Shown here: positions 34,256 through 49,975 of the stretch, piece by piece
Position numbering within the stretch: position 1 is the first letter of the stretch
How the letters are laid out: every line of letters starts with the position of its first letter
Source: Candidatus Planktophila lacus
GTDB lineage: Bacteria > Actinomycetota > Actinomycetes > Nanopelagicales > Nanopelagicaceae
Length of the DNA stretch: 64,000 nt
Direction of reading: 5' to 3'
Assembly: GCF_002288325.1 (NCBI RefSeq)
Contig: NZ_CP016780.1
Location: 620,001 to 684,000 of the forward strand
Program-made: the position numbers and the translations under genes
The notes under the pieces: generated by a model
Told to the model about the DNA's origin: nothing
Databases searched by the model: none
Seen by the model: only the letters and a program-made list of their open reading frames with translations

Positions 34256-35168
34256 AAACGCGCTCCAATCTTTTGTTGATCATTTAACTATTGAACGCGG
34301 TTTATCAAGCAACTCTATATCTGCCTATAAACGAGACCTTGCCAAATTTTCTGAGTATCTAGTTTTTGAAAAGTTAGATTTTGAGCGTTTGAGTGAAGAT
34401 GAAATTATCAGTTTCGAGGTTTGGCTTAAAGGTTTAGGAATGGCAGTTACTAGTATCAACCGCAACATCTCGGCGTTAAAGAGTTTCTACAAATATCTAG
34501 CGCAAGAGTTTTCAACAAATAATCCAGTTAGCGCTGTAGCGAGTTCGAAAGTACCACGCCGTCTACCGAAGGCGCTGACGATTAAAGAGATTACTTCACT
34601 TATTGATTCCACAAAGCGTGAAGGTGATCCTATTTCGCTCCGTGATCATGCGATCATCGAACTTCTCTATGGCACGGGGGCGCGCGTGAGTGAGATTGTC
34701 GGAATCGACATCAACGATTTTGCGCAGAGTGATATCGAAGGCAATCCCATAACGACTCTGAAGTTGAGAGGTAAGGGATCAAAAGAGCGGATTGTGCCCC
34801 TTGGAAGTTTCGCAAAGAGCGCTCTCGATGAGTATTTAGTTCGAATTAGACCGAACCTGCTGACTAAAAGTAAATCAGCAAGGGTTGAGACCGCACTATT
34901 CTTAAATCAACGGGGGAGCCGCCTCTCGCGACAGAGCGCATGGCAGATGATTTCGGATGCCGCAGATTCAACTGGCTTATCCGGCAAAGTTTCTCCGCAC
35001 GTCTTTAGACATTCCTATGCCACGCATTTGCTAGACGGTGGTGCTGATATTCGCGTGGTTCAAGAGTTGTTGGGGCATGCTTCAGTGACCACAACTCAGA
35101 TCTATACCCTGATTACGATAGATAAAGTGCGCGAAGCCTATGCAACCGCGCACCCGCGGGCTAATTAA
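34245..35168 (+). CDS. xerD: Tyrosine recombinase XerD
   Basis: 307-aa site-specific recombinase that resolves chromosome dimers with a XerC or homodimer partner at dif. An N-terminal SAM-like core-binding domain (about 1-90) precedes the catalytic domain with R in GTGARVSE, K in GKGSKER, HxxR in HVFRHSYATH, H in LLGHASV and the nucleophile Y in TQIYT. Start: ATG 34245 inside the ald end, giving the usual [15 protein letters not shown] longer frame from 34200 is less likely. Confidence 0.95.
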   Translation: MKFENALQSFVDHLTIERGLSSNSISAYKRDLAKFSEYLVFEKLDFERLSEDEIISFEVWLKGLGMAVTSINRNISALKSFYKYLAQEFSTNNPVSAVASSKVPRRLPKALTIKEITSLIDSTKREGDPISLRDHAIIELLYGTGARVSEIVGIDINDFAQSDIEGNPITTLKLRGKGSKERIVPLGSFAKSALDEYLVRIRPNLLTKSKSARVETALFLNQRGSRLSRQSAWQMISDAADSTGLSGKVSPHVFRHSYATHLLDGGADIRVVQELLGHASVTTTQIYTLITIDKVREAYATAHPRAN

Positions 35169-35575
35169 ATTCCGCGGAGTCTACGAGCAAGAATCGATTG
35201 ATCGCCTTTAGCTTCAAGATCAGCAACGATTACTGCGATTGATTCACGAACAATTCGACCGCGATCTACGGCAAGTCCTAGATCTCCACGCAGAGTAAGT
35301 CGTGCTTGATCGAGATCAAACAACTCATCTGGAGATAAGTAAACGGTGATCTTCTCATCGTGTTTTTCGCGACCCGAAGGAGAGCGATCAACTGTTGTAA
35401 CGCGACGACGTGGCGTTGAGCGAACTCCCTTCTTTGTCTTCGGAGCTGTTGCTGCAACACCAATTGGCTTGCTGACTTCTTGGGCTTCTTCAACAACTTG
35501 GCGAACTGCGCTAAGTGCGGGCGTATTCGCGCGGAAGAGTTCATCTGCTCCAGGCAAGCTTGCTCTACGTGTCAT
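35165..35575 (-). CDS. Small DNA-binding partner of ParA with RHH-like C-terminus
   Basis: 136-aa protein. Residues 1-75 are Pro/Lys/Arg-rich and probably disordered. Residues 76-136 (KITVYLSPDELFDLDQARL, then GRIVRESIAVIVADLEA) look like a ribbon-helix-helix domain: a beta strand then two helices. It overlaps the parA stop by 4 bases, so it is the likely partner of that ATPase in place of a ParB. It is convergent with xerD, overlapping by 4 bases. The function is unproven. Confidence 0.75.
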   Translation of the reverse strand: MTRRASLPGADELFRANTPALSAVRQVVEEAQEVSKPIGVAATAPKTKKGVRSTPRRRVTTVDRSPSGREKHDEKITVYLSPDELFDLDQARLTLRGDLGLAVDRGRIVRESIAVIVADLEAKGDQSILARRLRGI

Positions 35576-36456
35576 CGTGCGCCTCCTCGGGCAATTAGTT
35601 CACGGGCTAATCTGCGATAAGAAGCAGCGCCCCCTGATGATGATGCATAACTAGTAATTGGTTCACCGGCGACAGTTGTTTCTGAGAAACGAATAGTTTT
35701 AGCGATAATTGTTTCAAAGACATCATCTGGATACTTTTCCAAGATCGCAGTCAATACCTCGCGGTTGTGAAGTGTCTTCTTCTCGTACATCGTCGCAAGG
35801 ATTCCAATGAGATTTAGATCAGGGTTTAGGAAGCTCTTAACTTTCTCGATGTTTCCCTTGAGTTCAATAAATCCGTGAAGTGCAAAATATTCACATTGCA
35901 GAGGAACGATAACTTCATCGGATGCAACAAGTGCGTTGATCGTTAGCTGTCCCATTGTTGGTTGGCAGTCGATCAAGACAACGTCGTAACGATCCTTTAG
36001 GCGACCAAGTGCGCGCTTTAAATACTGTTGTCCGCCAATTTCAGCGCCAAGAGTTGTTTCAGCGGTACCGAGGTCGCGGTTAGCAGGAAGGAAATCTAGA
36101 TTTGCAACAGATGATTTAAGGACGATCTCATCGATATTCGCATCCGGTGTCATCAAGGCGTAATAGACAGTGTTCTCAAGTGGTAGCGCGTGCGCATTTA
36201 CTCCAAGGCCTAGCGATAATCCGCCTTGTGGGTCGAAGTCAACGAGCAGTACGCGACGACCAAGTTCTGCAATGGCTGCACCGAGATTGATAGTTGTAGT
36301 TGTCTTACCTACGCCGCCCTTTTGATTAAAGATCGAGATGATCTTCGCTGGCTGGCCCTCAACTGGGGCTGGCGGAACGCGGAAGTTTTTCGGTTCGCGC
36401 CCGAGAAGAGTGGCGGTAGTTGCCACATCATCATCAAATGTCGATTTAGCGTTCAA
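35572..36456 (-). CDS. ParA-like chromosome partitioning ATPase
   Basis: 294-aa deviant Walker A ATPase. It has KGGVGKTTTTINLG near residue 46, Walker A' LLVDFDPQGG near 70, and VLIDCQPTMGQLT near 136. It starts at TTG 36456, 8 bases after an AGAGG Shine-Dalgarno. It sits beside scpAB and xerD, as the second ParA-like gene does in other actinobacteria, not with the oriC parAB pair. It is divergent from scpA with 77 bases between. Confidence 0.93.
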   Translation of the reverse strand: MNAKSTFDDDVATTATLLGREPKNFRVPPAPVEGQPAKIISIFNQKGGVGKTTTTINLGAAIAELGRRVLLVDFDPQGGLSLGLGVNAHALPLENTVYYALMTPDANIDEIVLKSSVANLDFLPANRDLGTAETTLGAEIGGQQYLKRALGRLKDRYDVVLIDCQPTMGQLTINALVASDEVIVPLQCEYFALHGFIELKGNIEKVKSFLNPDLNLIGILATMYEKKTLHNREVLTAILEKYPDDVFETIIAKTIRFSETTVAGEPITSYASSSGGAASYRRLARELIARGGAR

Positions 36457-36521
36457 GCGAGAAACCTCTTTCTGTTGGCGCGACTCTACGCTCCATGCGC
36501 AGATTTGAGCAAGTAAAGAAG

Positions 36522-38165: not shown

Positions 38166-38891
38166 ATGGATAGCCAAATGGCCGAAATGCGCCTAAATAA
38201 AATTATCGCCGACGCTGGAATTACGAGCCGTCGCGGAGCCGATGAGTTAATCATGGATGGTCGAGTAAGCGTGGATGGATTCGTCTGTCGTGAGCTGGGC
38301 GCCAGGTTTGACCCACAAATGGTGAAAGTCATGGTAGATGGTGAGACAATTACACGCTCAATAACTAAGTCTTATCTTGTACTTCATAAACCTAAAGGCG
38401 TTCTGTCAACGATGTTTGACCCGGAAGGTCGCCCCTCATTAGCAGACTTTATTGACCTTAGAAAAGAGCGCCTTTTCCACGTGGGACGCCTTGATAAGGA
38501 TTCTGAAGGGCTAATCCTGCTGACCAATGACGGGGATTTAACCTTTAGAGCCACCCACCCGTCTTTTGGGCTGGAAAAGACCTACATTATTGAATTTGAT
38601 GGAAAGCTCCCGGTTGGGGCTGAGAAGACCCTTTTGAAGGGGATCGAGCTTGAGGATGGAATTGGCCGAGTTCTCTCATTTAAACAGTTGAGTCCCCAGT
38701 GGCTAGAGGTCACAATCCACGAAGGCAGATACCACATCATCCGCCGGCTAATGGAGGCAGTCGATGTCACCGTACTTAGATTGATCCGTACGAACTTCGG
38801 CCCCATCTCATTGGGAGATACCCCTGAAGGAAGATGGCGAGATCTAAATGCAGGTGAATTAGCAAACCTACAAAAGGCTTTAGACTTATAA
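38166..38891 (+). CDS. rluB: 23S rRNA pseudouridine synthase, RluB/RsuA family
   Basis: 241-aa enzyme with an N-terminal S4 domain (RLNKIIADAGITSRRGADELI) and a catalytic domain with the aspartate in GRLDKDSEGLILLTNDG near residue 101. It fits the scpAB-rluB-cmk order of actinobacteria. Starts at ATG 38166, 38178 or 38184 are all possible. A six-codon upstream frame (38153-38173) overlaps the first ATG. Confidence 0.93.
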   Translation: MDSQMAEMRLNKIIADAGITSRRGADELIMDGRVSVDGFVCRELGARFDPQMVKVMVDGETITRSITKSYLVLHKPKGVLSTMFDPEGRPSLADFIDLRKERLFHVGRLDKDSEGLILLTNDGDLTFRATHPSFGLEKTYIIEFDGKLPVGAEKTLLKGIELEDGIGRVLSFKQLSPQWLEVTIHEGRYHIIRRLMEAVDVTVLRLIRTNFGPISLGDTPEGRWRDLNAGELANLQKALDL

Positions 38892-38929
38892 CGTTTTATC
38901 TATACAGGGTATATAAGCCCATAAACCTA

Positions 38930-39122
38930 TTTATCGATATGAATTACGGAAGTCGATTTTTTACCTATTTATCGATATTTATAGCCGAAATTGAGCATAA
39001 ATTGTGTCGTTTTTAACTATTTATCGATATTCATGAAATTTCGGTTGTGGAGCGGTTCTCAGGAAGGCCTTAACTAGGTGCTTATCGATATCGTAAAAGC
39101 GTTTACTAGATATATCGATAAA
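38930..39122 (+). repeat. Cluster of five TATCGATA palindromes in AT-rich DNA
   Basis: The palindrome TATCGATA occurs at 38932-38939, 38970-38977, 39022-39029, 39083-39090 and 39113-39120. The first three sit in CTATTTATCGATAT. The fifth is an exact inverted copy of TTTATCGATAT. The 281-base gap before aroH is AT-rich and has no other coding signal. Start-to-start spacings are 38, 52, 61 and 30. Possible roles are an operator for aroH-tyrA or a binding array for the nearby ParA/RHH pair. Neither is shown. Confidence 0.85.
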
Positions 39123-39160
39123 ACGCGATATATATAATGACCAGTTCAACTTTCTGCGGG

Positions 39161-39166
39161 TACTAT
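39161..39166 (+). promoter_or_regulatory. -10 element of leaderless aroH transcript (TACTAT)
   Basis: TACTAT ends six bases before ATG 39173. A possible -35 ATGACC lies at 39137-39142, 18 bases upstream. Confidence 0.6.
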
Positions 39167-39172
39167 TGGCCA

Positions 39173-39538
39173 ATGTCTACGGTTAGAGCGATACGCGGGG
39201 CGGTTCAGGCGCAGGCCAATACCGCCGAGGCGATAGACGCTGCCACCAAAGAGCTGTTGGCTGAGATGCTTCGGGCCAACGCAATTACCGCCGTTGACTT
39301 CATCTCGGTGATCTTTACCGTCAGCCCGGATCTAAATGCAGCATTTCCAGCGAGCTCTGCTCGTGAGCTTGGATTTACTGATGTTCCGCTCATCTGTTCT
39401 GTAGAAATCGGAGTTCCCGGCTCGCTCGAACGCACTATTCGCATTATGGCTCACGTTGAAAGTGACCTAAAAAAGTCAGAAATCAACCATATCTACCTAG
39501 GCGGAGCAAAGGTTTTACGCCGAGATATAGCTCAGTAG
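39173..39538 (+). CDS. aroH: Chorismate mutase, AroH type
   Basis: 121-aa AroH-fold chorismate mutase, which makes prephenate for Tyr and Phe. It has VRAIRGAVQAQANTAEAI at the start, DFISVIFTVSPDLNAAFPA near 41, and VPLICSVEIGVPGSLERTIRIMAHVE. I place the start at ATG 39173: it gives the family N-terminus and follows a -10 hexamer by six bases. An in-frame ATG at 39137 would lie upstream of that -10. tyrA follows after 8 bases. Confidence 0.92.
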   Translation: MSTVRAIRGAVQAQANTAEAIDAATKELLAEMLRANAITAVDFISVIFTVSPDLNAAFPASSARELGFTDVPLICSVEIGVPGSLERTIRIMAHVESDLKKSEINHIYLGGAKVLRRDIAQ

Positions 39539-40708: not shown

Positions 40709-42661
40709 ATGATCGTTGTAGCCATCGATGGACCAAGCGGTGCGGGAAAGTCCAGCACATCAAAACTTGTTGCACAACGAGCAGGTTGGAATTATTTAGA
40801 TACTGGCGCTTTGTACCGTGCAGTCGCATGGTTGGCACTCAGAGAAAAAATTAGCTCTTCTGATGAAATCCTCTCCGCTCTTGCCGACAACACAATTCAC
40901 TTCATCGCAGATCCTAAAGATCCCAAAGTTTTTGTTGGAGATGTTGATGTATCTACAGAGATTAGAAGTGAAAAAGTCACTGAAAGCGTTAGCGCAATTA
41001 GCGCAATTCCAGAAATTCGCGCCGCACTTCTAACTTTACAACGCAGATTGATAAATAGCGCGGAGCGCGGAATCGTTGTTGAAGGCCGTGATATAGGTAC
41101 GGTTGTTGCACCAGATGCACCGTTGAAGATTTATCTACAAGCAGATATCGCGGCTCGCGCCGCAAGACGTTCTAGCGAAATAGCAGCGCCAGTGGCGAGC
41201 GTTTCAGAATCTCTAAACCAACGCGATGAAATCGATTCGAATCGCGCAGTATCTCCTTTAGCTAAAGCATCTGATGCAGTTTTAATTGACTCTACAGAAC
41301 TGGATTTAGAAGAGACGGTAGAACGCGTCTGGGAGTTATTGAAAGAGCGTTCCCTGCTCGGTCTTCCAATCGTTGCAATTTTAGGTCGACCTAACGTTGG
41401 TAAATCAACTTTGATTAACCGTTTCATTGGACGTCGCGAAGCGATTGTTGAAGATACTCCTGGTGTGACACGTGATCGTGTTCAGTATGAATGCGAATGG
41501 GGCGGACGTCGTTTCATAATTATGGATACCGGTGGTTGGGAATCAAAGCCGGATGGAATTTCTGTGCAAGTTAGCGCATCTGCAGAACTTGCAATGCAAG
41601 AGGCGGATGTTCTCGCCTTCGTAGTTGATGCCCATGTGGGCGCACTAGATGAAGATGACATTTTGGTTCAGGAGCTTCGCAAAGTTAAGAAACCGATGGT
41701 TCTTATCGCAAATAAAGTTGATAGCGATGTAGATGAGGCGGATGCACACGCGCTCTGGAACCTTGGTCTTGGTGAACCTCGATTTGTATCTGCACTTCAT
41801 GGTCGTGGCAGCGGAGATTTACTTGATTACATCGTGCGCGAGATGCCAGAAGTTGGTGGCGCACAAACTCAAGATGGTTATCGCAAAATTGCACTCATCG
41901 GTCGACCAAATGTTGGTAAATCAAGTTTGCTAAATGCGCTTGCGGGCGAGAATCGTTCAATCGTTGATGATGTCGCCGGAACAACTCGCGACCCAGTAGA
42001 TGAATTGATTGAATTCGGGGGATCGATCTGGCGGTTTATCGACACTGCGGGCTTGCGTAAACGCGCGAATCAAGCCAGCGGAACTGACTATTACGCAACC
42101 CTTCGCACTCAGAGCGCACTGGAACGTTGTGAATGTGCGGTAGTTGTTCTAGATGCTTCGCTACCAATTTCTGAGCAGGATCTACGCGTCATCACCATGG
42201 TCGAAGAGGCCGGCAAAGCGATGGTGATCGTGATGAATAAATGGGATCTCGTCGATGAAGATCGCCGCGATCAATTAGATAAAGAGATCGACCGCCACCT
42301 TGATCAGGTCGAATGGGCCCAGCGAGTAAATGTTGCCGCCAAGACTGGTTGGCACCGTGATCGTTTAGCTCCAGCTCTTCGCACCGCGATCGATAGCTGG
42401 GAACGCCGCGTTCCAACCGCCAAACTCAACTCGTTCTTGGGCGCCCTCATCGGTGCGACCCCACCTCCAGTTCGTGGCGGCAAGCAACCAAAGATTTACT
42501 ACGCAACACAGGCCGGTATCGCACCCCCTAAGTTCGTTATCTTCTCCAGCGGTTGGATCGAGCCTTCTTATCGTCGCTTTATTGAACGTCGTTTGCGCGA
42601 AGAGTTCGGCTTCCCAGGCACGCCAGTTATGGTCGCGATTCGAGTAAAAGAGCGCGATTAA
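40709..42661 (+). CDS. cmk-der: Fused cytidylate kinase - GTPase Der
   Basis: 650-aa fusion. Residues 1-215 are CMP kinase (P-loop GPSGAGKSS near residue 9, [12 protein letters not shown] near 127). Residues about 222-650 are the ribosome assembly GTPase Der, with two G domains (both with GRPNVGKS, near 226 and 397; NKVD and NKWD) and a C-terminal KH-like domain. The two genes are neighbours in most actinobacteria, and the fused form is known in some. The stop overlaps the next ATG by one base. Confidence 0.95.
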
Positions 42662-49219: not shown

Positions 49220-49975
49220 TTACTTAACATAATGTAACTTATCGGCGTTAGGTCTGAGTATGCGTGAAATACCCCAACGGGTCGTCTGTAGCAACGCCTC
49301 GATAACTATCGCCTGCGACATCTTGGAAACGCCATTTATTCGCTCTACAAAGGTGATTGGAACTTCGATTTCGTTTGCACCAGCAAGATGGGCAGCAAGT
49401 CCCATCTCAATTTGATAGCAATAACCAGTTGCCTGCATATCGCTAAGTTTTAAAGCTTTGAGTAGATCAACGCTGTAAACCCGGAAACCACCAGTTAAGT
49501 CATTTAACGGGATTCCAAGGGCCAATTTGGCATATGCAGTGCCCGCTCGCGATAGATACTGGCGTCGCTTAGGCCAATTAACTACCGATCCGCCAGGTAT
49601 CCATCTAGTTCCCAGAACAATCAATTTTCCAGGTTCGATCGCTGCAATCATCTTCTCTAAATCGACAACTCGGTGTGATCCATCGGCATCCATAGTTACT
49701 ACATGGGTGTAACTCGAATCAGCGAGAACTTGTACAAATCCCGCCCGATAAGCAGCACCCAATCCGCCTTTACCGGGCCTGCGAAGTATCGACACCCAAG
49801 GTAGATGTAAATTATCGACAATGTTGGCAGTTCCATCTGGTGAATTATCATCGATGACAATGACATCAAAATTACTTCTTTTATTTGCACGAAATTCGGT
49901 TAACTTATCAAGTAGCTCAACGATAGAAACAGCCTCGTTGTAAGTCGGAATCAGAAGAGCAATCTTAATTGTCAT
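49220..49975 (-). CDS. ppm1: Polyprenol-phosphate mannosyltransferase (Ppm1/DPM1 type)
   Basis: 251-aa family 2 glycosyltransferase without its own membrane domain. It has IPTYNEAVSI near residue 9, VIDDNSPDGT near 40, the MDADGSH metal motif near 94 and TRWIPGGSVVNW near 122. It matches the synthase that makes the lipid-linked mannose donor for cell-envelope glycans and protein mannosylation. It overlaps lnt by 4 bases. In M. tuberculosis the two are fused; here they are separate. Confidence 0.9.
   Translation of the reverse strand: MTIKIALLIPTYNEAVSIVELLDKLTEFRANKRSNFDVIVIDDNSPDGTANIVDNLHLPWVSILRRPGKGGLGAAYRAGFVQVLADSSYTHVVTMDADGSHRVVDLEKMIAAIEPGKLIVLGTRWIPGGSVVNWPKRRQYLSRAGTAYAKLALGIPLNDLTGGFRVYSVDLLKALKLSDMQATGYCYQIEMGLAAHLAGANEIEVPITFVERINGVSKMSQAIVIEALLQTTRWGISRILRPNADKLHYVK

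Follow-up and report, generated by a model that had tools for sequence, protein, structure and literature searches.

The window analysed here is a stretch of 64 kb (G000:620001-684000) from the genome of a freshwater actinobacterium, which consists of a single contig of 1384812 bp. It contains the genes xerD, a gene encoding a protein of 136 aa, parA, scpA, scpB and rluB, in this order, followed by an AT-rich intergenic gap of 245 bp (38892..39136) that separates rluB from aroH and carries an array of short palindromes. Five of them, grouped within 190 bp, share the octamer TATCGATA, as the initial annotation had stated. Four are on the forward strand: site 1 (TTTATCGATATG, 38930..38941, with the octamer at 38932-38939), site 2 (TTTATCGATATT, 38968..38979, octamer at 38970-38977), site 3 (again TTTATCGATATT, 39020..39031, octamer at 39022-39029) and site 4 (CTTATCGATATC, 39081..39092, octamer at 39083-39090). 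Site 5 is on the reverse strand (39111..39122, octamer at 39113-39120) and is the inverted form TTTATCGATAT; the longer form CTATTTATCGATAT occurs three times, and both of these observations agree with what had been noted before. A degenerate first site on the forward strand, TTATCTATAC (38896..38905), makes a sixth member of the series. The sites are separate palindromes, spaced by about 30-90 bp, and lie 2.5 kb from parA. The possibility that the array is a structured RNA or a riboswitch was rejected, as it has no match in Rfam.

The octamer is present eight times in the window, against 0.93 expected from dinucleotide shuffles. The three copies outside the array are each single (2900, 50148 and 61539); the first two had been reported as isolated occurrences, and the third had been overlooked. 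In the whole genome there are 59 copies, i.e., the octamer is over-represented, mostly inside genes. Since the bare octamer is common in coding DNA, the evidence lies in the clustering and in the longer motif. The 1.385-Mb genome has 10 copies of the latter, TTTATCGATA; four of them are in the rluB-aroH gap and the remaining six within long ORFs, and the count over the whole genome found no intergenic copy beyond this gap. The full motif clusters intergenically at a single place. A loose group of six octamers at G000:488-499 kb lies entirely within ORFs.

The array is conserved in the family of Candidatus Planktophila. Allowing for at most two mismatches, we found 265 sites in 73 distinct rluB-aroH gaps (71 from the family and two from outgroups), against 26 expected in shuffles of the same gaps, the genomes compared being related and not phylogenetically independent. 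The two outgroup gaps have no site at this threshold, and G077 is the sole family gap without any. The array is present in nearly all relatives with a readable gap, so the objection that it might be missing from close relatives fails. It is kept in the same gap over 11 genera, with AroH identity down to about 45%, and the sites persist while the DNA between them is scrambled to the point of being unrecognisable between relatives. The length of the gap is conserved (about 230-310 bp), and the positions of the sites cluster near -250, -210, -180, -138 and -60 before aroH, those proximal to the promoter being the least conserved. The matrix built from these sites is palindromic past the 10-bp seed used to collect them, and C and G are nearly missing at the next flanking position.

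The genes upstream of the array include a putative partner for it. The parA gene (35572..36456, reverse strand, start codon TTG) encodes a Walker-type ParA ATPase (AAA_31, E 1.9e-55) with the motif KGGVGKTT. By its position beside scpA it is the ParA2/PldP/Rv1708 protein, an orthology based on synteny and not on a tree. The 136-aa gene (35165..35575, reverse strand) overlaps the stop of parA (35572/35575), and its product is the proposed binder of the motif. The partner gene follows parA throughout the family and in further families as well; it is present in 65 of the 148 genomes sampled from the class, and beside parA in the loci that were fetched. At the default threshold, neither Pfam nor NCBIfam has a family that matches the protein. 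Its disordered N-terminus carries the motif [ST]RRxxLPGADELFR and is joined by a variable linker to a conserved C-terminal domain (consensus DEKITVYxSxEEL...DRGRIVREA), and seven residues of the N-terminus (R3, R4, L7, P8, L13, F14 and R15) are invariant among 24 sequences. The N-terminus has low confidence in the structure model, which predicts for the C-terminal domain an extended segment and then two helices (17-34 and 40-61; pLDDT 92). The top Foldseek matches among solved structures (ranks 1 and 2) include the ribbon-helix-helix (RHH) ParB of pCXC100, with weak scores (best E 1.4), and the best match in Pfam is RHH_3 (E 0.0057, in 2 of 37 members). The modelled fold and these matches suggest that the partner is likely an RHH protein. 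A search of 72,556 plasmid records found no homologue.

A related site, TAAATCGACATT, overlaps codons 3-7 of parA (36437..36448, reverse strand), downstream of the conserved -10 element TAGAGT (36483..36488, reverse strand, in the context GCGTAGAGTC). Codons K4-S5-T6 are fixed as AAR-TCG-ACW in 95 family sequences, and Ser5 is TCG in all 95, though TCG makes up 14% of the Ser codons. When the 401 conserved degenerate columns of six genes of the locus are ranked by codon constraint, Ser5 comes first and Thr6 sixth. The distance between the site and the start codon differs between genera, which makes it more likely that the constraint acts on DNA than on translation initiation. The fixed synonymous positions are taken as a DNA site embedded in coding sequence, at the very start of parA. 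The same region carries RTCGAYWW in 29 of the 33 outgroup loci that have the RHH gene (2.9 expected), against two of the six loci without it (Fisher p 0.011, for a comparison set that is small, with 6-7 loci). In the control 5' regions of scpA, scpB and rluB, the pattern is found in 1-9 of the 33 loci, and in the 5' region of xerD in 9 of the 18 RHH loci that could be tested. In the outgroups the site often falls on the opening codons of parA, but all three phases occur.

In eight streptomycete-like loci (L203, L219, L230-L234 and L239), parA2 starts with ATGAAYGAGTCGACAWTT or its GTG variant, which includes the same RTCGAC site. The alignment of the DNA upstream of parA in these eight genomes shows a strongly conserved promoter; the loci have the parA-start site and no array, and the family-trained matrix described below has no match in them.

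Is the motif also associated with the RHH gene beyond the start of parA? A first outgroup pattern, TTTRTCGAYAAA, had been picked by eye from some of the outgroups that it scored, and was replaced by a matrix for which only family sites served as training data. This matrix has 29 matches in 201 kb of 20 other RHH loci (0.4 expected from shuffles), of which 27 are intergenic and 13 lie in the rluB-aroH gap. It has none in the 78 kb of seven RHH-less loci, and loci without the partner gene are mostly without candidate sites. The RHH genomes rich in GC (mostly 64-76%) have AT-rich near-palindromes, such as TTTGTCGACAAA and TTTATCGACATA, around the same locus. The near-exact 12-mer has very low counts in GC-rich genomes, and the single copy in one of them (G290) is just upstream of parA. 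In other lineages the sites are found also, or instead, at parA, between the RHH gene and scpA, or between cmk and tyrA, and five f26 loci with the RHH gene have at most one stray match. TTRTCGAYAA was also observed early in xerD in all four examined genomes of the genus g26 (L133:10602, L134:5109, L135:9906 and L152:3197) and near the end of xerD at L075:11538 and L139:4487; these are sites spread around the parA locus.

The array sits in the terminus region, opposite oriC. With dnaA at coordinate 1 it is at 48% of the genome, and the cumulative GC skew reaches its maximum at about 40-50 kb of the window. Near this maximum, about 10 kb from the array, there is a dif-like XerCD site, AACGCCGATAAGTTACATTATGTTAAGT (49222..49249, reverse strand); the match at 49224-49242 is one in the window, where 0.43 are expected at that tolerance. 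The array itself was considered as the 28-bp XerCD dif site and rejected, since the window has no dif-like match other than this distant one. The locus is at 50-52% of the genome in two relatives (G014 and G015), and in a third (G070) the distance between it and the parS-like sites is about 54% of the genome. We also rejected the array as a canonical parS: the parS-like TTTCACGTGAAA is absent from it and is found near oriC instead (G000:1382247, in a genome of 1384812 bp), the only other copy being at G000:1160160. The position at the terminus is not independent proof of a function there, because the gene order around scpAB is widely conserved.

These results lead us to propose, with a probability of about two in three, that the palindromes form a centromere-like array to which the 136-aa RHH-type partner of the second parA would bind. 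The initial annotation had offered a centromere-like array for the ParA/RHH pair as one of two options. The conservation of the motif, its association with the RHH gene and the constrained parA site argue for it; the binding of the protein to DNA, autoregulation, the activation of ParA and a role in segregation or division are what we infer. Every palindrome of the TTTATCGATAAA type would take up one dimer of the RHH protein, as would the lone related site at the start of parA, which might adjust the expression of parA and the RHH gene. The array would seed a nucleoprotein complex that does not spread and that serves as the cargo of ParA, and the ATPase would move or anchor this complex via the N-terminal peptide of the RHH protein. 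The complex could then position the terminus-proximal part of the chromosome, or place the division apparatus with respect to it, and would do so separately from the ParAB-parS system of oriC. We propose positioning of the terminus or of division because of where the locus lies: across the chromosome from oriC, beside scpAB and at about 10 kb from a dif-like site. To our knowledge, RHH proteins do not spread along DNA; a complex would therefore require more than one site in cis, in agreement with the array.

The other option was that the array is the operator of aroH-tyrA, bound by some regulator, or by the RHH protein as a transcription factor, and tuning the synthesis of aromatic amino acids. 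The aroH gene has a leaderless promoter with the -10 element TACTAT (39161..39166, forward strand), which is followed after 6 nt by the ATG at 39173. This ATG is probably the real start of aroH, on a leaderless mRNA, and the start of the longer ORF at 39137 is not conserved. The array is always directly upstream of aroH in the family, with roughly 40 bp between the -10 element and the closest site in the window; the family members that seemed to have the array and to have lost aroH turned out to be contig ends or to have an intact aroH. Yet the conserved leaderless promoter lies downstream of all sites of the array, and the sites closest to it are the least conserved. The genome has no intergenic TTTATCGATA beyond the gap from which a regulon could be built, and the idea of a regulon operator was rejected, the other exact copies being in ORFs and the octamers at 488-499 kb all being coding. 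Other lineages place sites at loci other than aroH, and this explanation leaves the constraint on the parA site unaccounted for. Because of the constant adjacency a role at aroH keeps some probability, but an aroH-tyrA operator is unlikely, and less likely than a centromere; the suggestion that ArgR- or MerR-type regulators bind the sites found no support.

It is just as doubtful that the sites have no part in segregation or positioning and serve the RHH protein only for autoregulation, or the parA operon as a dosage sink. The parA site is the most widely conserved feature, and many RHH lineages have it without an array. On the other hand, a multi-site array placed 2.5 kb from parA in streamlined genomes exceeds what an autoregulator needs. 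Still more improbable is that the array marks the terminus for a factor unrelated to the RHH protein, of the MatP, SMC or replication-fork-barrier type. The locus is near the GC-skew switch and the dif-like site, and it is near mid-chromosome in several complete relatives, as judged from the start coordinate or from the parS-like sites. The conserved order of the genes around scpAB makes this position non-independent, the motif is found at one locus and not scattered over a Ter domain in the manner of MatP/matS, and the parA-start site and the association with RHH point to the partner of ParA. Finally, clustering of the octamer in AT-rich DNA by chance or composition, despite its genome-wide excess inside genes, is refuted by the 10-fold excess of family sites over shuffles of the same gaps, by their persistence over 11 genera in scrambled surroundings, and by their recurrence in genomes of 70-76% GC.

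The centromere-like system that we propose resembles several known ones, among them the type Ib partition systems. Their RHH proteins bind repeated sites and repress their own operon, and a flexible basic N-terminus acts on ParA (PMC5016525, PMC9499535); the steps of binding, repression and contact with ParA in our model are drawn by analogy with them. In TP228 ParFGH, pSM19035 delta-omega and pCXC100 ParAB, as here, a Walker ParA ATPase is followed by a small partner with a disordered basic N-terminus and a C-terminal strand-helix-helix (modelled in the present protein), and there is a cluster of short repeated sites with a related site at the 5' end of the operon (PMC5016525, PMC9499535). 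The locus studied here has the Walker ParA, the small gene directly downstream and a predicted flexible basic N-terminus that may activate ParA. Type Ib systems are on plasmids, whereas the present one is chromosomal, and their centromeres are contiguous repeats of 7 bp or similar at the promoter, whereas here we found spaced palindromes 2.5 kb away and a single site at parA. Since the repeats are neither contiguous nor at the promoter of the operon, we do not class the system as a member of type Ib. The archaeal SegAB system consists of a chromosomal ParA-type ATPase and an RHH partner that binds the centromere (PMC9178275), and it shares with the present one the chromosomal location, the RHH partner and centromere-like sites (PMC9178275). 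It differs in being archaeal and not bacterial, in the motif and its location, and in that the present host also has parS-like sites near oriC.

The ParA protein itself has been studied in corynebacteria and mycobacteria as PldP or Rv1708, described without a partner ParB (PMC3989709), and this second ParA has been linked to the placement of the division site (PMC3989709, PMC4255298, PMC10482377). The gene is next to scpA there too (MSMEG_3743 beside scpA, MSMEG_3742), but in contrast to these partnerless descriptions we find, in the lineages compared here, a partner gene that is conserved, together with candidate sites. HTH-ParB/parS systems likewise have palindromic sites near a parA gene. 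In our case the motif is TTTATCGATAAA and not TTTCACGTGAAA, the locus is opposite oriC, and no HTH/CTPase ParB adjoins it. A 2016 review assigned all the centromere-binding proteins of bacterial chromosomes to the HTH class (PMC5002424).

We put at even odds the more general proposal that many lineages have a complete system of three parts, in which the second actinobacterial ParA (ParA2/PldP), regarded until now as partnerless, works with an RHH protein that binds the centromere and with one class of palindromic sites (core RTCGAY, and TTTATCGATAAA when arrayed) that form an array in the terminus region. Such a system would be a chromosomal, RHH-based partition system of bacteria that acts opposite the ParABS of oriC. 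If so, the conserved RHH partner and the candidate centromere would supply both of the missing pieces, the function of ParA2 (SCO1772 in Streptomyces) could be tested in cultivable Streptomyces and other Actinomycetes, and some bacteria would use a ParA system to hold not only the origin but also the terminus. We found no mention of the motif in a relevant context in the open-access literature, and an earlier report of the partner or of the site may exist.

Some further observations concern the surroundings of the array and the records used. Just before it, the Leu codons 235 (CTA) and 239 (TTA) of RluB are unusually fixed, in the context AAGGCTTTAGA (about 38868-38891 in the window); they rank 11 and 2 of the 401 columns by codon constraint and may be another signal. 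Downstream, a single ORF of 650 aa (40709-42661 in the window) encodes a fusion of cytidylate kinase and the GTPase Der, which is matched in relatives. Seven of the metagenome-assembled genome (MAG) records (L251, L258, L267, L270, L283, L295 and L319) are titled 'Bifidobacterium breve' and another (L315) 'Candidatus Fonsibacter', and all have misleading names, as their sequences are of the Planktophila type.
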